A stretch of DNA of 59,033 nt from Halorubrum coriense DSM 10284 (GTDB lineage: Archaea; Halobacteriota; Halobacteria; Halobacteriales; Haloferacaceae): positions 6,987 through 66,019 of the forward strand of contig NZ_AOJL01000061.1 of assembly GCF_000337035.1 (NCBI RefSeq), read 5' to 3'. Made by a program: the position numbers and the translations under genes. Each line of letters starts with the position of its first letter. Position 1 is the first letter of the stretch. Under the pieces are notes generated by a model. It was not told the origin of the DNA, did no database searches, and saw only the letters and a list, made by a program, of their open reading frames with translations. Positions 5,985 through 50,245 of this stretch are shown one piece after another.

Positions 5985-6063
5985 AGACTGCTCAGTTCGC
6001 ACTCTTCAGCGATCAGTTGTTTCAGGAAGAACCTATCTGAAGAAGAGGATTTCAACAGAGCCG
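5985..6063 (-). repeat. Solo IS terminus, type B
   Basis: Read on the minus strand: CGGCTCTGTTGAAATCCTCT, then TCTTCAGATAGG, then a stretch coding SLKQLIAEECEL. Related copies lie at 12305, 37155 and 50157. The coding part looks like a transposase N-terminus, but the rest of the gene is missing. Confidence 0.65.
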
Positions 6064-12304: not shown

Positions 12305-12385
12305 GGCTCTGTTGAAATCCTCTTCTTCAGATGTATTCCCGCCTGAAACAGCTGGTCGATGAGAACTGCGTACTGAGCGATGACC
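12305..12385 (+). repeat. Solo IS terminus, type B
   Basis: GGCTCTGTTGAAATCCTCTT CTTCAG followed by a stretch coding SRLKQLVDENCVLSDD, the start of a lost transposase. It makes the downstream gene appear to have a longer N-terminus than it really has. Confidence 0.65.
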
Positions 12386-37157: not shown

Positions 37158-37236
37158 CTCTGTCAGTACGCACTCTTCAGCGAACAGCTGTTTCAGACGG
37201 GTCAATGTCTGAAGAAAAGGATTTCAACAGAGCCGC
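37155..37236 (-). repeat. Solo IS terminus, type B
   Basis: Minus strand: CGGCTCTGTTGAAATCCTTT, then TCTTCAGACATTGACC, then codons for TRLKQLFAEECVLTES. The match to the other type B copies ends there. Confidence 0.65.
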
Positions 37237-40907: not shown

Positions 40908-41822
40908 ATGCTCATGACGCCGGGACCGACCGCGGTCCCCGAACTCGTCCGCGACGCGATGAGCCGCGAGCTGATCGATCCCGACGTGGGCCCGGAGTTC
41001 CGGCGGATCTACGATCGACTCACCGACCGGCTGGGGACGGTGTACGGGGTCGAGTCCGGCGAGGAGGGGGGAGCGGACGACGGGTCCGCCCGCGACGTCG
41101 TCGTCCCCGGCGGCGAGGGGATCCTCGGCCTGGAGGCCGCGATCGCCTCGCTCGTCGAGCCCGGCACTGAGGTGCTCTGCCTGTCGAACGGGCTCTACGG
41201 AGACGGCTTCGCCGACTTCGTCGAGTCGTACGGCGGCGAGGCGACCCTCGTCTCGGCCGACTACGACGAGCCGCTCCCGCTGGCGGAGCTGGAGTCGGCG
41301 CTCGCCCGGGGAGACGCCGACTTCGAGGTCGCGACGATGGTCCACTGCGAGACGCCCACGGGGACGCTCAACGACCTCGGGCCCGCGCTGGACTTACTGG
41401 AGGAAACCGACGGCGAGGTCCTCACTGTCGTCGACGCCGTCTCCTCGCTCGGCGGGGCGAGGGTGCCGACCGAGCGGATCGACGTCTGTCTGGGCGCCTC
41501 CCAGAAGTGCTTCAGCGCGCCGCCGGGGCTCACCACGGCCGTGATCAGCGAGCGTGCGTGGACCGCGATGGAGGAGCGCGACCCGCACTCGCTGTACACG
41601 AACTTCCTGCCGTGGCGCAACACCTCAGGGGGATTCCCGTACACCCACCTCACGACCGAGGTCGTGGCGCTCGACGCGGCGCTCGGACTGTGGCTGGAGG
41701 AGGGGCTCGACGACGTTCGAGAGCGTCATCGCACCGCGGCGGCGCGGTGTCGCGAGCGCGGGGCGGAGCTGGGGCTGGAGCCGTATCCGGAGCCCGAGCG
41801 CAGTTCGCCGATGGTGACCGCC
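40908..41822 (+). pseudogene. PLP-dependent aminotransferase (alanine-glyoxylate type), 3' end lost
   Basis: From ATG 40908: MLMTPGPTAVPELVRDAMSR. PLP-fold landmarks: GGEGILGLEAAIASLV, MVHCETPTGTLNDL, TVVDAVSSLGG, and the lysine in LGASQKCFSAPPG that forms the Schiff base. The reading is normal up to SSPMVTA (41822) and then enters an IS6 fragment, so the last ~60 residues including part of the small domain are missing. The remaining protein is probably inactive. Family: class V, serine-pyruvate/alanine-glyoxylate aminotransferases. Confidence 0.85.
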
Positions 41823-41971
41823 ATAGAAATCGGAATGCTGTTGAACGTATTGCTAGAGAAACAAACGACGAATAGCCTGTTTCTCAAACTGTTTCAGCAA
41901 CGCCAACGCAGAAGCTGCCGACAATTGGCTCAGATCGTTCAGCTTCCCGTGAAATAAGCTCACCTGAACAC
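41822..41971 (+). mobile_element. IS6-family remnant (right part)
   Basis: CATAGAAATCGGAATGCTGT onward aligns with the 3' part of the IS6 transposase at 49960-50104 (CATGGAAGTCGGAACAGCGT). Shared further on are CTGTTTCAGCAAC and GCCGACAATTGG, and the common right end is TGAACACTACGT. It carries frameshifts. Only the last ~150 bp of the IS remain. Confidence 0.75.
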
Positions 41972-42025
41972 TACGTGGCGTATGGTGGCAAGAATCAAGT
42001 GTAGACCCCACCTCCCACCGGGGGC

Positions 42026-42715
42026 ATGTACCGGGCCAAAATCTACCTCAAACTGGACACGAACTGTATCCTCAGTCAGGTGACGAACAAGTGGAACTTT
42101 TCTTTTACTGTCCACAGTGAAGAATTAATTGACGGCGGCAAGGTTCGGTTTGTGCTCGACGCCGGTGACCGGATCGAAGAAATCGAGGCCGCCTTCGAGG
42201 CGTCGGACGAGGTGACGGCGCTCAACCGGGTCGAGGAGAGCCGGCTGGCGGTGACGAAACATGCCTGCGGCGCGCTCCCGATCATCCGAGAAAATCACGG
42301 GATGCTCGAGGGGCGCGATCAGGTCAGTGGCGACCAGCGCGTGTTCGACATGGTGGTGTACCGCCGACAAGATCTCCGCAACATAATCGAGGAACTCGCC
42401 TCGATCAGCACTGTCAAACTCGGCCGGCTCACCCCTTACCTCGAACCCGAGAGCATGCTCTCGGAACGCCAGTCGGAGGTGATCTCGACGGCGTTGCGGC
42501 GCGGTTACTACGAGTGGCCACGCAAGACCGACGCAGAGACGCTTGCCGGTGAGCTGGGGATCGCCCACTCGACGTTCCTCGAACACCTCAGGAAAGCGGA
42601 GCGCGCGCTGCTCTCGGATGCCCTCGGCCGCGGCGGCCGGACCGAGGTACCAGGGCCGGACGAGGCGGAGCTCATGCTGGGGGGCGAACGGGCTACCGAT
42701 CCGTCAGATAAATAA
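42026..42715 (+). CDS. Bat-type HTH-10 transcriptional regulator
   Basis: 229 aa. The N-terminal ~150 residues are a bacterioopsin-activator-like sensor domain. The C-terminal HTH-10 reads MLSERQSEVISTALRRGYYE, WPRKTDAETLAGELGIAHST, FLEHLRKAERALL, the classic haloarchaeal Bat signature. It stands directly upstream of and in line with the importer operon, 56 bp away, and is therefore its likely activator. The sensed ligand is unknown. A hairpin at 42719 separates it from the next gene. Confidence 0.9.
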   Translation: MYRAKIYLKLDTNCILSQVTNKWNFSFTVHSEELIDGGKVRFVLDAGDRIEEIEAAFEASDEVTALNRVEESRLAVTKHACGALPIIRENHGMLEGRDQVSGDQRVFDMVVYRRQDLRNIIEELASISTVKLGRLTPYLEPESMLSERQSEVISTALRRGYYEWPRKTDAETLAGELGIAHSTFLEHLRKAERALLSDALGRGGRTEVPGPDEAELMLGGERATDPSDK

Positions 42716-42718
42716 AAA

Positions 42719-42734
42719 GCCTACCAGTGTAGGC
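42719..42734 (+). promoter_or_regulatory. Inverted repeat between regulator and operon
   Basis: GCCTAC-CAGT-GTAGGC is a perfect 6-bp inverted repeat starting 4 bp after the regulator's stop. It follows an A-run rather than preceding a T-run, so I favour an operator or RNA processing hairpin over a terminator. Confidence 0.4.
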
Positions 42735-42771
42735 GGAAGGCAAACCTTCACGGACTATAGTGACAGACGGT

Positions 42772-44073
42772 ATGGAACGTAAACAGTTCACACGCCGGCG
42801 GTTCATCGGTACGGCTGGAACAACAGCGACGCTTGGAATCGCGGGCTGCCTCGGTGGTGGCGACAGCGGAGAAAACACAATCCGGTACCTCTCCGACCGT
42901 GGGGACTCCAGCGACGTCGTCGACGACATCATCGAGGAGTTCGAGAACGAGTTCGACTACACCGTCGAGGTCACCTACACCTCGCGCGGGACATCGACGG
43001 ACGAGGAGCTCCAGCAGATGCTCGCAGCCGGGAACCCCCCGGATCTAGTGTTTGACACGTCCGCCGACGCCTACCGGTACCAGCAGAACGGCAGCCTCGC
43101 GACCGTCACCAGCGCGGTACAGGACGTTGGACTCCCGGACCCAGTCAACATTGACGGCGAGTCCTACTTCGCGCCGACGATGGTCGAGCCCCTGATGGGC
43201 TGGTACCGCAACGACCTGTACGAGGAGAACCCGACGAACTTCGAGACCTGGCTCAGCGAGGCCCAGCGCGTCAGCGAGGAGGAGGACATGAACGGCTACG
43301 TCGTCCCAACGGGCCAGACCAACAACGCCGACACGTCGACGACCCAATACCTCTGGCAGAACGACGTGGAGATCTACAGCGGCCCCTCCGATGACATTCA
43401 GATTACCATCGACCAAGGTGAGAACCGCGAGCGCGCGGTCGAGACCTACCAGTGGCTCCAAAGCATCAACGAGTACGCACCGAACGGCTCCGGCTGGGAG
43501 TGGGGCGACGGCACGCAAGCGCTCCAGCAGGGTAACGCCGCCGCGTTGATGTCCGTCGGCGGCCTGCCGATCCTAAGCATCCGCCAGAACCGACCTGACC
43601 TCGTCGATAACCTCTCACCGACCGGGTTCCCGATCCCACAGGGCGGCTCCCAAGACACGTGGTGGGCGTACATGGAGGGCCACGTCGTCCGGAACGACGG
43701 CGAGGCAACCGAGGGCGCACAGGAGTTCACCCGCTTCTTCAGCGAGTCCGAGCGCTTCCTCGACTTCGTGCTGTCGGCGCCACTGTTCCAATGGCCGCCG
43801 ACTGAGGAGCTCATGAACAGCGACCAGATGACCGAGAACGAGGTTCTGGCAGAGCACCAGGAGGCGGTAGATCTGGTTCGGGACAACTGGGATGCGTTCA
43901 CCACCGTGCTCGCGACGGGTGACGAGGAGGCGCCCAACCTCACGGCCGCCAACGCATACAGTGGACAGCTGTTCGGGCAGTCGGCCGAGCAGATGCTTGT
44001 TGGCAGCCAGTCACCCGAGGAGACGGTCGATTGGGTGGCGGCGGAACTTCGCGGCCTTCAGGAGGAGGAGTAA
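42772..44073 (+). CDS. Tat-exported lipoprotein, ABC substrate-binding protein (sugar-type)
   Basis: 433 aa from ATG 42772 (GTG 42760 is an alternative). Tat motif RRRFIGTAG, lipobox GIAGC with Cys26. The mature part is an extracellular solute-binding protein of family 1 (MalE-like): DELQQMLAAGNPPDLVFDTS-type segment, VEPLMGWYRNDLYEENP, GQLFGQSAEQMLVG. Anchored outside the membrane, it hands its ligand to the permeases encoded next. MalE-type proteins usually bind sugars, but the enzymes of this operon point to an organic acid or its derivative; ligand not determinable from sequence. Confidence 0.92.
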   Translation: MERKQFTRRRFIGTAGTTATLGIAGCLGGGDSGENTIRYLSDRGDSSDVVDDIIEEFENEFDYTVEVTYTSRGTSTDEELQQMLAAGNPPDLVFDTSADAYRYQQNGSLATVTSAVQDVGLPDPVNIDGESYFAPTMVEPLMGWYRNDLYEENPTNFETWLSEAQRVSEEEDMNGYVVPTGQTNNADTSTTQYLWQNDVEIYSGPSDDIQITIDQGENRERAVETYQWLQSINEYAPNGSGWEWGDGTQALQQGNAAALMSVGGLPILSIRQNRPDLVDNLSPTGFPIPQGGSQDTWWAYMEGHVVRNDGEATEGAQEFTRFFSESERFLDFVLSAPLFQWPPTEELMNSDQMTENEVLAEHQEAVDLVRDNWDAFTTVLATGDEEAPNLTAANAYSGQLFGQSAEQMLVGSQSPEETVDWVAAELRGLQEEE

Positions 44074-44082
44074 CGCTTCTCG

Positions 44083-44997
44083 ATGTCCGCTGTCAGCACG
44101 TTACAGGGGAGGCTCGGCGAGTTCGACGAGAAGCGACTGCTGTTGCTCGCGATGTTTGTCCCGTTCACGCTGTTCTTTGTGCTGGTCTGGGGGGTCCCCA
44201 TCGGCTACGCGCTGGGGATGAGCCTGTTCTCGGACCCGACCGGCGCCGCGGAGTTTGCGTTCCTTGGGAACTACGTCGATGTCCTCACCTCCGAACTGTT
44301 CGGTACCGCGCTGTGGAACAGCATCGTTTACGCGCTCTCTTCGACGGTTCTCAGCCTCGTGCTGGGGCTAGGACTGGCGCTCGTGGTCAACCGGAAAATC
44401 AAGGGCGGCAACGCCTTGCGGACCATGATGATCTTCCCGTACCTCCTGCCGACACTCGTGGTTATTTTCATGTGGACGTTCCTGCTCGACCCCAACGTCG
44501 GCGCGGTGAACCAGTTCCTGCTCGACTACGGGGTGATTCAGGAGCCCCTGGCGTTCTTTTCGTCGACGACGTGGGCGATGCCCGCGGCTATCGTCGCGAG
44601 CGTCTGGAAGTACGGCTCGTTTGCGTTCTTCATCTTGCTTGCGCGCCTACAGGCGATCGATCCGAACCTCTACGAGCGCGCCCGTGTCGAGGGTGCGTCG
44701 ACATGGCAGGCGTTCCGTGACATCACCATTCCGAACCTTCGGGGAGCGATCCTGATCATCATTCTCGTCAGGGGGATCTGGATGTTCAACAAGTTCGACA
44801 TCATTTACCTCGCGACCCGCGGCGGCCCACTGGACGCAACGACGACGCTGCCGATCATGGTGTACGAACTGGCGTTCCTCGGATCGCCCGACTTCGGCGG
44901 TGCGACCGCACTTGCAGGCATCATGTTTCTGCTACTCGCAGCCGTCGCGGTGGTGTACTTCTGGGCGTTCAAACCCGAACAGGAGGTGACTACGTGA
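44083..44997 (+). CDS. ABC importer permease, MalF-like
   Basis: 304 aa. Six helices with the EAA loop YERARVEGASTWQAFRDITI-P characteristic of binding-protein-dependent permeases. Starts 9 bp after the binding-protein stop and overlaps the second permease by 4 bp. Confidence 0.92.
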   Translation: MSAVSTLQGRLGEFDEKRLLLLAMFVPFTLFFVLVWGVPIGYALGMSLFSDPTGAAEFAFLGNYVDVLTSELFGTALWNSIVYALSSTVLSLVLGLGLALVVNRKIKGGNALRTMMIFPYLLPTLVVIFMWTFLLDPNVGAVNQFLLDYGVIQEPLAFFSSTTWAMPAAIVASVWKYGSFAFFILLARLQAIDPNLYERARVEGASTWQAFRDITIPNLRGAILIIILVRGIWMFNKFDIIYLATRGGPLDATTTLPIMVYELAFLGSPDFGGATALAGIMFLLLAAVAVVYFWAFKPEQEVTT

Positions 44998-45872
44998 TGC
45001 TGGGACTCGGCGAGGGCGCCGCCGGGAAGTTCGTCAGCCAACGAACCCAGGAACAGGTGCGTCGAGTGACAGTAATTCTCACAGCCCTGCTCGTCGCGAT
45101 CTTTGTCAGTATCCCGGTGTACGTGATGATCGCTATCGCGTTCCAGCCCTCGGTGACGACCTTCCGAGGTGGACAAGTGAACCTGCTGTTTGATTCGTTC
45201 ACGTTCGATAACTTCGTCCTGTTGTTCACGGAGACCGGCACCCCCCGCTACCTGTTCAACAGTTTCGTGGTCACGGCGTCTTCGACGCTGCTGGCGACAG
45301 CACTGTCGGTTGCGGCGGGATACGGGCTGACCCGCTTCGAGTTCCGTGGGAAGACGATGGCCGCGCGTGCGGTACTGTTCGCGTACATGTTCAGTCCGAT
45401 CGTGCTCGCCATCCCGCTGTACGTCATCTTCTTCTCGCTGGGGATGCTCGACAGCTACTTCGCGCTAACGCTGGCGCTGACGGGTATCTCCGCGCCGTTC
45501 GGCATCTGGCTGATGTGGCAGTACTTTCAGACGGTGCCCATCGCGCTGGAGGAGTCAGCGTGGATCCGCGGCGCAAGCCGAACCCGTACCCTCTGGGAGG
45601 TCGTTCTCCCCGTCGCGCGACCCGGCACCATTGCCACGGCCATCTTTTCGTTTTCGGTTGCGTGGAACGACTTCACGATGGCCCGTGTGGTAATGAGTCA
45701 ACAAGAGATGTACCCGATCACCGTCGGCGCTAGCCTGTTTCTCGACCGCGTGAGCATCGGCTGGTCCGAGACTATGGCGGCGGCAGTGCTGATGTCGCTC
45801 CCGCCGTTCGCGATCGCGCTGTTCCTCCAGAATTACCTGCTACAGGGCTTCAACGTTGGAGGACTCGAATAA
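44994..45872 (+). CDS. ABC importer permease, MalG-like
   Basis: 292 aa. About six helices; the EAA loop reads LEESAWIRGASRTRTLWEVV-LP. Partner of the MalF-like subunit in a heterodimeric channel. The start (GTG or ATG at 44994-44997) overlaps the previous stop; the ATPase gene begins 2 bp after this stop. Confidence 0.92.
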   Translation: MMLGLGEGAAGKFVSQRTQEQVRRVTVILTALLVAIFVSIPVYVMIAIAFQPSVTTFRGGQVNLLFDSFTFDNFVLLFTETGTPRYLFNSFVVTASSTLLATALSVAAGYGLTRFEFRGKTMAARAVLFAYMFSPIVLAIPLYVIFFSLGMLDSYFALTLALTGISAPFGIWLMWQYFQTVPIALEESAWIRGASRTRTLWEVVLPVARPGTIATAIFSFSVAWNDFTMARVVMSQQEMYPITVGASLFLDRVSIGWSETMAAAVLMSLPPFAIALFLQNYLLQGFNVGGLE

Positions 45873-45874
45873 CT

Positions 45875-47008
45875 ATGGCACAACCGATACGACTCGATGA
45901 CGTTCGCAAGGAGTACCACACCGCCGGCGCGAGCCACGTCGCCGTCGACGACCTCTCACTGGAGATTCCCGAGGGGTCGTTCACGACTATCGTCGGTCCT
46001 TCTGGCTGCGGGAAGACCACCACGCTGCGGATGATCGCCGGGCTGGAGACCCCCACCTCGGGGACGATTCACTTCGGCGACCGCGACGTGACCGATGTCC
46101 GCCCGCAGGACCGCAACGCCGCGATGGTGTTCCAGTCCATCGCGCTCTACCCTCACATGACCGTGCGTGAGAATATCGCCTACGGGCTGAAAGTCGCGGG
46201 CGTCCCAAAGGCCAAACGCGACGCGGCCGTCGACGAGGCGGCCGAAACTCTCCAGATCCGCGAACAGTTGGAGAAGATGCCCGCTGAACTCTCCGGCGGC
46301 CAGCAACAGCGCGTCGCGCTCGGCAGTGCGTTCGTACAAGACCCCGACGTGCTCCTGCTTGACGAGCCGATGTCCGACCTAGACGCAAAACTCAAAGCCG
46401 AACTCCGGGTTGAGGTTCAGCGCCTCCACAAGGAGATGGACGCGACGATGGTATACGTCACCCACGACCAGACAGAAGCAATGACGATGAGCGACCATGT
46501 GCTCCTGCTGGAGGAGGGTCGCCTCGCGCAGTTCGCGCCGCCAAGCGATCTGTTCGACCGGCCAGTGTCCCAGTACGTCGCGGAGTTCATCGGCACGCCC
46601 TCGACCAACACGTTGCCCGCGACCGTTGAGGTCGGCGGCGACGCCCCGACTATCGTTGGGGAGCAGTTCGAGATCCCAGCGCCGTCGGACCTGTTCGCCG
46701 ACCGTATCGGCGACTCGGTAACGGTCGGCATCCGGCCGCAGTATCTCTCGCCCGACGGTGGTGACCACCACGTCAGAGTGATAGTGGACGTCGTCGAACA
46801 ACTCGGTACGGAGTTTGTCGTCCACGGCACGAGCGTCGACGGCACCCACATCAACGTCGTCGACGAGCGCGTCGGTGACGCCGGCCCTGACGACGAACTC
46901 TCGGTTGGATTCGACGGCGGCGACGCGTTCGTGTTCGACAAAGACGGCGAAACCATCTGTCACGGCGACGTGCTCGTCGCTGCCCGCTCCGCCTCCCCCT
47001 CTCAATGA
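45875..47008 (+). CDS. ABC importer ATPase, MalK/UgpC-like
   Basis: 377 aa. Walker A GPSGCGKTTT, signature LSGGQQQRVALG, Walker B VLLLDEPMSDLD, H-loop YVTHDQTEAM. The C-terminal ~130 residues form the OB-type regulatory domain (TVGIRPQYLSPDGGDHHVRV) of the MalK group. Overlaps the CoA-transferase gene by 4 bp. Confidence 0.94.
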   Translation: MAQPIRLDDVRKEYHTAGASHVAVDDLSLEIPEGSFTTIVGPSGCGKTTTLRMIAGLETPTSGTIHFGDRDVTDVRPQDRNAAMVFQSIALYPHMTVRENIAYGLKVAGVPKAKRDAAVDEAAETLQIREQLEKMPAELSGGQQQRVALGSAFVQDPDVLLLDEPMSDLDAKLKAELRVEVQRLHKEMDATMVYVTHDQTEAMTMSDHVLLLEEGRLAQFAPPSDLFDRPVSQYVAEFIGTPSTNTLPATVEVGGDAPTIVGEQFEIPAPSDLFADRIGDSVTVGIRPQYLSPDGGDHHVRVIVDVVEQLGTEFVVHGTSVDGTHINVVDERVGDAGPDDELSVGFDGGDAFVFDKDGETICHGDVLVAARSASPSQ

Positions 47009-48288
47009 CGCGATACGACGATTCGACCGACGACACACGGCACAGAACAGATCGGCAACCACGCACCGACGGCGGCCACCGAATCGCCCCGAACCTGCTC
47101 CCCGGCGCCGAGGGGCGGCCGCTTTCGGACGTGACGGTACTAGAATTAGGTCACATCATCGCCGGCCCGTTCTGTTCCATGCTGCTGGCCGACCTCGGCG
47201 CCGAGGTCATCAAGGTGGAACACCCCAAGGGCGGTGACGCAGTCCGAGACTCTTCGGAGGTCGGAAACAGTTCGTTCAATTACGTCAATCGCAACAAACT
47301 TGGCGTTACCCTCGACCTGAAGTCCGATGAGGGCAGCGCGGTGTTCGCGGACCTCGTGGAGGAGTCGGACGTGCTCATCGAGAATTTCGCCACTGGCACC
47401 GCTGACCGCCTTGGTGTCGGCTACGACGATCTGAAAACAATCAACAAAGAACTGGTGTACTGCTCGATTAAGGGGTTCAACGAAGGACCCTATGAGGATT
47501 ACCCGGCGCTCGACCCCGTCGCAGAAGCGCTTTCCGGCGTGATGAGCGTCACGGGCCACCCTGATCAACCACCGGTTCGGTCTGGGACCAGCCTCGCGGA
47601 CATGGCCGCCTCGCTGTACGGCGCCATTTCCATCCTCGGCGGCGTGCGCCAGCGCGATGCCAGCGGGGATGGCCAACATGTCACCGTCCCGCTGTACGAA
47701 AGCACCGTCTCGCTAATGGGCTACTGGCTGGCGTACACACAGGCCTACGGGAAGGTGGCTGAACCAATCGGCGCCGGCCACCCGAACTGGGCACCGTACA
47801 ACGCGTACCAGTCCGCCGACGAGGAGTGGGTGTTCGTCGGTCCGTCTTCACAGGCCCAGTGGGAGGCGATGTGTGAGGTGCTCGACACCGACCTCCACGA
47901 AGACGCCCGCTTTTCAACGCTCGACGACCGCCGCGACCACCGCGAGGCACTAGATAAGGGCGTCGCCGCAGCCTGCGAGCAGTTCGAGGCCGAGGAACTT
48001 ATTTCCCGCCTCCGCAACGCTGGCGTTCCGGTCGCACCAGTCAACGACACGCAGGACGTGATTGACGATCCGTACCTCCGACAGACCGACGCGCTGGGCA
48101 CGATCCACGCGACGGAGGGCGATGGCGGTGACATAGACGTACCGCGCTACCCTGCCCGCTCGACTAGGTTCGACCGCGTGGAGAATGCCGACCCGCCTGA
48201 ACTCGGCGAAGACACTGACGCCGTACTCGAAGCACTGGGCTACGACGAGGCGGAGCGCGAGCGACTCCGCGACACAGGGGCGGTATGA
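47005..48288 (+). CDS. Family III CoA-transferase (CaiB/BaiF)
   Basis: 427 aa. Family signatures: VTVLELGHIIAGPFCSMLLA, DLGAEVIKVEHPKGGD, RNKLGVTLDLKSDEG, DVLIENFATGTADRLGVGYD. The catalytic Asp lies at residue 170 (YPALDPVAEALSG), matching Asp169 of formyl-CoA transferase. It moves CoA between carboxylic acids (for example from succinyl-CoA). Position inside an importer operon and before a Claisen-type enzyme suggests that it activates the imported acid. Exact acid unknown; candidates are C5-C6 hydroxy-dicarboxylates. Confidence 0.93.
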   Translation: MTRYDDSTDDTRHRTDRQPRTDGGHRIAPNLLPGAEGRPLSDVTVLELGHIIAGPFCSMLLADLGAEVIKVEHPKGGDAVRDSSEVGNSSFNYVNRNKLGVTLDLKSDEGSAVFADLVEESDVLIENFATGTADRLGVGYDDLKTINKELVYCSIKGFNEGPYEDYPALDPVAEALSGVMSVTGHPDQPPVRSGTSLADMAASLYGAISILGGVRQRDASGDGQHVTVPLYESTVSLMGYWLAYTQAYGKVAEPIGAGHPNWAPYNAYQSADEEWVFVGPSSQAQWEAMCEVLDTDLHEDARFSTLDDRRDHREALDKGVAAACEQFEAEELISRLRNAGVPVAPVNDTQDVIDDPYLRQTDALGTIHATEGDGGDIDVPRYPARSTRFDRVENADPPELGEDTDAVLEALGYDEAERERLRDTGAV

Positions 48289-49364
48289 AACTCCTCGATC
48301 TCACGCTGCGGGAGGGCGAACAGCGTCCGGGCGTCGAGTACACGGTCGAGCAGAAGGTCGATGCGGCCCGCGAACTCGACCGGCTTGGCGCCGACTTCGT
48401 CCAGATCGGCTTCCCAGTAGCTGGCGAACGAACGCAGAAGGTGTGTAAGCGACTCGACATTGAAGCCGACGTGACTGGCCTCGCCAGAGCGATCCCGAGT
48501 GACGTGGCGGCCGCGCTCGATGCCGGCGTCGACGTGGTGGACCTGTTCGCACCGGCCAGCGATGCGCAACTGGACGCCGTCCTCGGCGCCTCCCGCGAGT
48601 CGATGATCAAGTCGGTACAGGAAGCCGCCAAACTCGCCCGGGAGGGCGGCTCCGACGTACACTTCACTGCGATGGATGGATTTCGCACCTGTCCCGCCCA
48701 CCTCGACGACCTGTTCGCCGCGGTCGACGCCGACTGGTATACCGTCGCGGACACCGTCGGCTCCCGGACACCGGCGGGTGTCGAGCGGCTCCTCGAGGCC
48801 CTCGACGCAGACCTCGGGTCCATCGGTGTCCACTTCCACGAGGACATTGGCGTTGGCACCGCGAACGCACTGGCGGCGGGCCGCGCTGGCGCCGGGAAGG
48901 TTGACGTGTCGATCGGCGGCATCGGCGAGCGAGCAGGCAACACCGCCACCGAGGAGTTCGTCGCCGCCGCCGCGGTCGGCGGGGAGCCGATCGACCTTGC
49001 GGTGGACGAGTCGTCGCTGCTCCCCGTCGCCAACCGCGTGCTGGACGCGCTGGGCGAGGACGTGAAACCAACGAAGCCCCTACTCGGCGCTGAGGTGTTC
49101 TCACATGAGTCTGGCCTCCACACCGCCGCGATGCTGGACGAGCCGTCAACGTTTGAGCCGTTCGACCCTGTCCGCTTTGGGGGGAAGCGGCGGCTTCTGT
49201 TCGGGGTGAGTACTGGCGCCGGTGCGGCCCGGAAGCTCCTCAAACGCGCGGGCCGGGAACCCACGGACGACCGCGTCGAAGCGCTGCTCGCTCGACTCGG
49301 AGACTTGGACGAGGAGATCGGAGTTGAGGAGGCGATCGCAGTGGCGAACGACGTGGACGGCTGA
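48285..49364 (+). CDS. DRE-TIM metallolyase superfamily enzyme (isopropylmalate/homocitrate synthase-like)
   Basis: 359 aa. The N-terminus MKLLDLTLREGEQRPGVEYT carries the Arg9-Glu10 catalytic/metal pair; the metal-binding HFH is at 183-185 (GVHFHEDIGVGTA), and GIGERAGNTATEEF is the Claisen-condensing subgroup motif. HMG-CoA lyases lack that last motif. There is no LeuA-type regulatory domain, so it is short, like NifV or Re-type enzymes. Substrate likely an acyl-CoA plus a 2-oxoacid, or the reverse cleavage. Overlaps the CoA-transferase gene by 4 bp and ends the operon. Confidence 0.88.
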   Translation: MKLLDLTLREGEQRPGVEYTVEQKVDAARELDRLGADFVQIGFPVAGERTQKVCKRLDIEADVTGLARAIPSDVAAALDAGVDVVDLFAPASDAQLDAVLGASRESMIKSVQEAAKLAREGGSDVHFTAMDGFRTCPAHLDDLFAAVDADWYTVADTVGSRTPAGVERLLEALDADLGSIGVHFHEDIGVGTANALAAGRAGAGKVDVSIGGIGERAGNTATEEFVAAAAVGGEPIDLAVDESSLLPVANRVLDALGEDVKPTKPLLGAEVFSHESGLHTAAMLDEPSTFEPFDPVRFGGKRRLLFGVSTGAGAARKLLKRAGREPTDDRVEALLARLGDLDEEIGVEEAIAVANDVDG

Positions 49365-49420: not shown

Positions 49421-50108
49421 GTGTTCAGATAAGGAAAAAGAGTGAGGCGGTGTGTTTTCTGAGTAGTTTATGCCTGAAAACACACGCCTCAGCGGTATTA
49501 TCAACCAGCTCGAATTGTTATTTGTCGAACGAGGAGCGACACCGAGATTGCTGATGAAGCTCGGTATTCAGCTCCATCTTGCTGGCCTATCACTTTCGAG
49601 TACAGTTTTATTCTTGAGATATTTAGTGTCGAATGTACTCGATCGACGGTTCATAGTTAGGCTCACAAAGTCGATCTACAGCCTGAAGGTGGGCGGTGTC
49701 GGGATCACATTGTGGTTGACGAGACTGTGATCCGAATCAATGATGAGCAATATTGGCTGTATGCTGCTGTCGATCCTGAAACAAACGAATTGCTCGATAC
49801 AAAAGTTGAGCCAACGACGACAAAGATTCTCCCTCATTCGTCTCTAACGGAACTCTCCAAGAAACACGACGTCTCCGACGCCGTGTTTCTCGTCGATGGA
49901 TCGCACTCGTTACAATATGCGTGTCAACGCCACGACTTTGATTTCAGATACGAGAAACATGGAAGTCGGAACAGCGTCGAACGTGTCTTTAGAGTGATAA
50001 ACCGTCGAAATATAGATTTCTCAAGCTGTTTCAGCAACATCGAAGCAGAAACCGCCGACAATTGGATCAAATCGTTCAGTTTCGCATGGAATCAGCTTAT
50101 TTGAACAC
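49421..50108 (+). mobile_element. IS6-family element, degenerate
   Basis: 688 bp bounded by the inverted repeats GTGTTCAGATAAG (49421-49433) and CTTATTTGAACAC (50096-50108). It lies 57 bp after the operon's last gene, in the same orientation as the remnant at 41822-41971 upstream of the operon. Together they form the outline of an IS6-type pseudo-compound transposon. Confidence 0.8.
49470..50104 (+). pseudogene. IS6-family transposase, frameshift and nonsense
   Basis: ATG 49470 gives MPENTRLSGIINQLELLFVE and GIQLHLAGLSLSSTVLF, then the frame is lost. Shifting by one restores FSVECTRSTVHS, TAG (expected Trp: HSW-HK), then AHKVDLQPEGGRCRDH and IVVDETVIRINDEQYWLYAA. Downstream the DDE residues are visible: VDET, VFLVDGSHSL and, in place of the last Glu, SRNSVERVF. 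At least one indel and one TGG-to-TAG change inactivate it. Confidence 0.85.
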
Positions 50109-50156
50109 TACGTACAAAAGAGAAATGAAACTCATAGTCGCACATAGATTTGAGAG

Positions 50157-50245
50157 GCTCTGTTGAAATCCTCTTCTTCAGCTAGGTCCTTGCCTGAAAT
50201 GACTGATCGCTGAAGGGTGCGTATTGTTCGACTCAGTACAGCCGC
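50157..50245 (+). repeat. Solo IS terminus, type B
   Basis: GGCTCTGTTGAAATCCTCTT CTTCAGCTAGG, then TGCCTGAAATGACTGATCGC and TGAAGGGTGCGTATTG. The expected transposase start is altered. It lies 50 bp after the IS6 element. Confidence 0.6.

Follow-up and report, generated by a model that had tools for sequence, protein, structure and literature searches.

A haloarchaeal operon that joins the genes of a sugar-type ABC importer to those of a CoA-transferase and a LeuA-like enzyme raises the question of which compound is taken up and what becomes of it in the cell. Such an operon lies in a stretch of 59,033 nucleotides from Halorubrum coriense DSM 10284 (contig NZ_AOJL01000061.1), hereafter referred to as the window. 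An earlier note on this DNA, made from the sequence alone, considered the operon undescribed and proposed that a hydroxy-dicarboxylate is imported, converted to its CoA thioester and split to acetyl-CoA and a 2-oxoacid, or made by the reverse reaction. The first of these claims holds for the open-access literature. A search of open-access full text, with subscription papers outside its scope, found no study of the operon, and the sole mention found is that of a probable relative, HVO_A0489, which is 31% identical to the citramalate synthase MJ1392 and was assigned a "general function only" (PMC8305020). Judging from closely related plasmids of Haloferax lucentense and Haloferax alexandrinus, which carry the last gene of the operon in the window, HVO_A0489 is likely the same gene.

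Gene content and conservation of the operon

The operon comprises seven genes in head-to-tail orientation spanning positions 42026 to 49364 (Table 1), and Pfam supports the family of every product: HTH_10 for the regulator, SBP_bac_1/8 for the solute-binding protein (SBP), BPD_transp_1 for both permeases, ABC_tran with TOBE_2/OB_MalK for the ATPase, CoA_transf_3 (E 4e-113) for the CoA-transferase, and HMGL-like with HCS_D2 for the final enzyme, referred to here as the DRE enzyme. An SBP_bac_1 protein, two BPD_transp_1 permeases and a MalK-like ATPase with TOBE/OB, all encoded in one operon, identify the importer as CUT1 type. The tight spacing described previously, with six genes overlapping or 2 to 9 bp apart, was confirmed from the SBP gene to the DRE gene, where the gaps are 9, −4, 2, −4 and −4 bp; the regulator is a seventh gene, 44 bp off. 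Scans of the window for consensus promoters and terminators gave no informative signal, the promoter model being a bacterial one.

Table 1. Features of the operon and its flanks (positions in the window)
Feature	Position	Strand	Evidence and remarks
Aminotransferase class V gene, 5' part	40908..41822	+	Cut short at 41822 (intact length about 360 aa); flank, outside the pathway
IS6-family element, 3'-end remnant	41822..41976	+	Left junction of the inserted segment; 75% DNA identity with 49958-50113, E 3e-23; tblastn residues 98-129
HTH_10 (bacterio-opsin-activator type) regulator	42026..42715	+	PF04967, E 1e-18; gene 1 of the operon in relatives too
CUT1-type ABC importer, solute-binding lipoprotein	42760..44073	+	PF01547/PF13416; AF2 pLDDT 78; fold matches sugar-type SBPs
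ABC permease 1 (UgpA/MalF type)	44083..44997	+	PF00528; NCBIfam UgpA 104 bits, below cut-off of 335
ABC permease 2 (GlcU/MalG type)	44994..45872	+	PF00528; GlcU 105 bits, below cut-off of 340
ABC ATPase (UgpC/MalK type)	45875..47008	+	PF00005, TOBE_2, OB_MalK; UgpC 379 bits, below cut-off of 432
Class III (CaiB/BaiF) CoA-transferase	47005..48288	+	PF02515, 379 bits; Asp199 nucleophile; GxGH loop at 256
LeuA/homocitrate-synthase-like DRE-TIM metalloenzyme	48285..49364	+	PF00682, PF22617; 359 aa, without the LeuA regulatory domain
IS6-family transposase remnant	49712..50104	+	Right flank, oriented like the left remnant; NF033587 115 bits, below the 125-bit cut-off, model 72-200 of 202

When 391 genomes of the class were searched with the DRE protein, matches at E ≤ 1e-80 came from 75 genomes, which belong to 31 of the 86 genera. 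Conservation of the neighborhood, suggested in the earlier note as a check, was assessed in 40 segments of some 20 kb that surround such matches and in the matches of a locus scan. Among the loci examined, the full order regulator-SBP-permease-permease-ATPase-CoA-transferase-DRE was found in 19, the window included, from at least eight haloarchaeal genera, and its recurrence in so many other genomes places the arrangement far beyond chance. The same gene order is seen in annotated plasmids of Haloferax lucentense and Haladaptatus salinisoli, where the two enzymes are named only "CaiB/BaiF CoA-transferase" and either "LeuA family protein" or "citramalate synthase". In loci L083 and L038 the same importer accompanies a CoA-transferase of a different clade. 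The operon is rare within the genus, where the DRE protein has a match in only two other genomes, one of them with the full operon (G108, L047). The bacterial matches of the locus scan (L039 to L043) are distant LeuA-like proteins without a CoA-transferase. In Halolamina pelagica (L033/L046) the DRE gene stands alone, and in Halolamina rubra (L036) only the CoA-transferase and DRE genes are present; L044 and L045 carry the full operon in the same neighborhood, a pattern of apparent stepwise decay.

Pairing of the CoA-transferase and the DRE enzyme

The genes of the two enzymes are kept together in nearly every haloarchaeal locus despite changed surroundings. In a tally with approximate start calls and one genome counted twice, the CoA-transferase gene directly adjoins the DRE gene in 37 of 45 haloarchaeal DRE loci, and in four more it lies 2.3 to 4.2 kb away, inside a TctABC cluster. 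The DRE gene is reversed in L053, L054, L055 and L058, tail to tail with the CoA-transferase gene and still adjacent to it, which indicates that the pairing is more than an effect of transcription. Pairwise identity in the one protein correlates with that in the other, with an r of 0.67 that none of 1,000 label permutations reached and to which shared species history contributes. In the loci compared, the set has no further gene family as a regular companion across genera, and neither a hydratase nor a third enzyme gene is conserved in it.

The CoA-transferases form two clades. One occurs with the CUT1 importer or with TctABC, and the other, whose identity to the protein of the window is about 33%, occurs in other settings, some of its members beside hydantoinase-like genes. 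The second clade has different DRE partners, so that the two clades may not share a substrate. In L074, L076 and L082, the second-clade CoA-transferase and the DRE gene stand beside HyuA/HyuB-like and isochorismatase-like genes, possibly a related pathway for nitrogen compounds.

Proposed pathway

The best explanation of this gene content, to which we give a probability of about 50%, is a substrate-regulated catabolic operon that would serve the import of a hydroxy-di- or tricarboxylate, its activation with CoA and its retro-Claisen cleavage. The ABC importer would take up a small acid of the 2-alkylmalate type, with citramalate as the simplest candidate. The CoA-transferase would then shift CoA from succinyl-CoA or acetyl-CoA to the carboxyl group beta to the carbinol, and the LeuA-like DRE enzyme would act as a metal-dependent lyase that releases acetyl-CoA and a 2-oxo acid, the HTH_10 protein regulating the operon in response to the substrate. 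That no hydratase is conserved in the set is in keeping with a substrate in which the hydroxyl group is already present.

The forward reaction of LeuA-type enzymes is pulled by hydrolysis of the thioester, which makes free-acid alkylmalates hard for such an enzyme to cleave. Prior formation of the CoA ester by the CoA-transferase would remove this barrier, and the cleavage would then resemble that carried out by HMG-CoA lyase. Several points count against a lyase. To our knowledge, the LeuA type comprises synthases and no CoA-ester lyases; in itaconate and citramalate breakdown the lyases are CitE-like, from another superfamily, and the HMG-CoA lyases form another branch.

The DRE enzyme and the direction of the reaction

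Membership of the DRE-TIM metallolyase superfamily is evident from R9-E10, H183/H185 and the GERAGN motif at 214 to 219, and from the fold. The earlier note had named R9, H183, H185 and this motif correctly, and they are invariant in 35 relatives; E10, Q13 and H279 are invariant as well. The AF2 model (pLDDT 93) consists of a TIM barrel and a post-barrel subdomain (HCS_D2), and VIA-align gave a Z of 38.7 to MAM synthase and of about 30 to HMG-CoA lyase. In the alignment with MAM synthase, R89 corresponds to R9, Q93 to Q13, H288/H290 to H183/H185, T257 to T157 and the general base H388 to H279, so that the metal and base residues are kept. The roles of these substrate-binding Arg/Gln, metal-binding His, Thr and general-base His residues in MAM synthase were tested by mutagenesis (PMC11532901).

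In MAM synthase the base is supported by E227 and Y399, at whose places the DRE clade of the window has Met130 and Phe290; members of the sister clade also have Leu, Val, Ala or Ile at the first of these. These replacements were rejected as a sign of lyase activity, since L002, a LeuA-like protein of the same genome, shares both Met and Phe. Reading the 2-oxo acid from pocket residues 66, 87, 126 and 155 was given up because their conservation within the clade is insufficient.

Against the curated model TIGR02090 the DRE enzyme scores 249.9 bits (cut-off 484.75), and it is below the cut-off of all other synthase equivalogs as well; the two other LeuA-type proteins of the genome, L002 (389.7 bits) and L003 (427.6 bits), also miss the TIGR02090 cut-off, though scoring much higher. 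The score against HMG-CoA lyase (PRK05692) is 40.1 bits, with a cut-off of 246. In the tree, the DRE clade is separate from the LeuA-type proteins of the genome (100/98), and in a phylum-wide profile search the members of the family, all haloarchaeal, score at least 505 bits and all other proteins at most 340, a gap of 165 bits. By these sequence comparisons, the DRE enzymes make up a haloarchaeal clade of their own and are not LeuA/CimA, despite the labels "LeuA family" and "citramalate synthase".

The enzyme might instead work in the synthetic direction, as an alkylmalate synthase that joins acetyl-CoA to an imported 2-oxo acid with hydrolysis of the thioester, the CoA-transferase activating the product for a later step. 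All close solved homologues of the DRE enzyme are synthases, the general base and its subdomain are kept (H279, HESG.H motif), and databases label its relatives as citramalate synthase. This direction is nevertheless unlikely, given that the set holds no conserved gene for a later step and that an importer with its own regulator usually points to catabolism. Moreover, L002 and L003 are able to serve leucine/isoleucine synthesis, for which a third LeuA-type gene would be superfluous.

The CoA-transferase

The match to the class III (CaiB/BaiF) family covers profile positions 1 to 366, and the nucleophilic aspartate is conserved in all 50 relatives. Its position, previously given as Asp170, has to be corrected to Asp199 when the ATG at 47005 is taken as the start. 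Among solved structures the nearest relatives are YfdE (207 bits) and SUGCT (203 bits), with other acyl-CoA transferases almost equal, so that the substrate cannot be read from them. Both YfdE (oxalate) and SUGCT act on dicarboxylates. The best NCBIfam match is succinyl-CoA:mesaconate CoA-transferase (NF041294; 257.7 bits, below the 700-bit cut-off), another class III relative that acts on a dicarboxylate (PMC5592240).

With SUGCT as the second-best solved relative, and with the DRE fold shared by HMG-CoA lyase, a special case of cleavage can be considered in which the acid is 3-hydroxy-3-methylglutarate, activated by a SUGCT-like CoA-transferase and cleaved to acetyl-CoA and acetoacetate by an HMG-CoA-lyase-like DRE enzyme. 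However, other class III enzymes, YfdE among them, have equal scores, the DRE sequence resembles LeuA/homocitrate synthase more closely than HMG-CoA lyase (279 versus 40 bits), and it keeps the second subdomain, which HMG-CoA lyases do not have. We therefore consider this acid improbable as the substrate.

The importer and its ligand

The fold of the SBP matches those of sugar-type SBPs (VIA-align Z of 32 to 37, 12 to 17% identity), and these matches do not discriminate between ligands. Most of the nearest folds are sugar binders, which is a point against the import of an acid; CUT1 binding proteins with anionic ligands, SmoF (sulfoquinovosyl compounds) and UgpB, are also among them.

Four loci (L061, L062, L070 and L081) have TctC-TctB-TctA in place of the ABC importer, beside the CoA-transferase and the DRE enzyme, and these genes are annotated as such in the Natrononativus amylolyticus record. 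The CoA-transferases of these loci are 60 to 65% identical to that of the window, and the ABC-type and Tct-type CoA-transferases form one clade with 100/100 support. The DRE enzyme of L061 falls inside the ABC-linked DRE clade (95/91), on a long branch, and those of L062, L070 and L081 fall in the sister clade. As a family, tripartite tricarboxylate transporters carry carboxylates, and their ligands are not limited to hydroxyl-bearing ones. The presence of two unrelated transporters beside close relatives of the same enzymes suggests a shared class of ligand, and the swap argues for a carboxylic acid as the ligand of the importer, a sugar being less likely.

The scheme of the earlier note gained support on two points, namely the compact uptake and two-enzyme pathway, from its conservation, and the preference for an organic acid over a sugar, from the TctABC swap. 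The outcome held there to be incompatible with it was a binding protein for an ordinary sugar and two enzymes of unrelated roles. Such a reading, in which the importer carries a sugar or glycoside and the genes share only the operon, would agree with the CUT1-type binding protein and subunits and with the sugar-binding folds. It has become less likely, and we regard it as very improbable, because the importer is linked to both enzymes in 19 loci, because TctABC replaces it beside their close relatives, and because the set has no other recurrent gene family across genera. Very improbable as well is an acid derived from a nitrogen compound, which is hinted at by the hydantoinase-type (HyuA/HyuB) and isochorismatase-type genes (c33 to c35, families read by eye from the sequence) that adjoin the enzyme pair in L074, L076 and L082; these genes occur only with the second CoA-transferase clade and are absent from the ABC-type loci of the window's clade and from the Tct-type loci.

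Genomic context of the operon

Upstream of the operon, the DNA is collinear with seven loci of the same genus at 81 to 87% identity, over 4.5 kb with three of them and over the aminotransferase gene with the four others, and the collinearity ends exactly at 41821/41822. Relatives of this gene are found in 48 of 52 genomes of the genus, intact in most; being a gene of the old chromosome that is cut at 41822, it was rejected as a part of the pathway. A second copy elsewhere in the genome (G000:C24:28361-29275) is 78% identical to the part that is kept.

An IS6-family remnant lies on either side of the operon, and the two, which point the same way, resemble the terminal elements of a composite or IS26-type translocatable unit. 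From the break in collinearity and these flanking remnants, the operon segment looks acquired or rearranged with IS6-type elements, and plasmid-borne operons of this kind in Haladaptatus, Haloferax and Natrononativus fit a mobile history. Copies and fragments of IS6-family transposases are frequent in the genome (17 matches to 49712-50104). A repeat of about 70 bp is present in four copies outside the operon (50156-50226, 5998-6062, 12305-12375 and 37164-37234; 76 to 91% identity).

Comparison with known systems

Tentatively, a DRE-TIM enzyme of the LeuA branch turned hydroxyacyl-CoA lyase and a class III CoA-transferase may together make up a two-enzyme route of 2-alkylmalate breakdown that evolved separately from the routes with CitE-type citramalyl-CoA lyase and with HMG-CoA lyase, and to which a CUT1 "sugar" importer was retargeted for an organic acid. 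If so, this would be a second evolutionary origin of alkylmalyl-CoA cleavage. It would give a role to a haloarchaeal family labeled as leucine/citramalate biosynthesis, with annotations to be corrected in many haloarchaeal genomes, and would mean that the organic acid is common enough in brines to maintain a dedicated, often plasmid-borne, uptake operon.

The itaconate degradation cluster (PMC12290011, PMC6689899) is similar in its CoA-transferase, which activates a C5 dicarboxylate, and in its lyase, which yields acetyl-CoA and pyruvate, and the Cupriavidus cluster has a gene for a Tct-type binding protein nearby. It differs in having a hydratase, a CitE-like citramalyl-CoA lyase from a different superfamily and no CUT1 importer, whereas the operon described here has no third enzyme and its candidate lyase is of the DRE-TIM type. 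HMG-CoA lyase with a SUGCT-type CoA-transferase shares the DRE-TIM metallolyase fold and the class III CoA-transferase; the DRE enzyme of the window, by contrast, belongs to the LeuA/homocitrate-synthase branch with its extra subdomain. The LeuA, CimA and homocitrate synthases (TIGR02090, NifV, LysS) have the same fold, metal ligands and base histidine, with about 30% identity to solved members, but the window enzyme is far below the curated cut-offs, stands in its own clade and is linked to a CoA-transferase and an importer. The mesaconate CoA-transferase of the methylaspartate cycle (PMC5592240) is likewise a haloarchaeal class III enzyme for a C5 dicarboxylate, from which the protein of the window is set apart by its score (258 bits against 700), by the GAGH instead of the GNxH loop in its clade and by its different neighbors.
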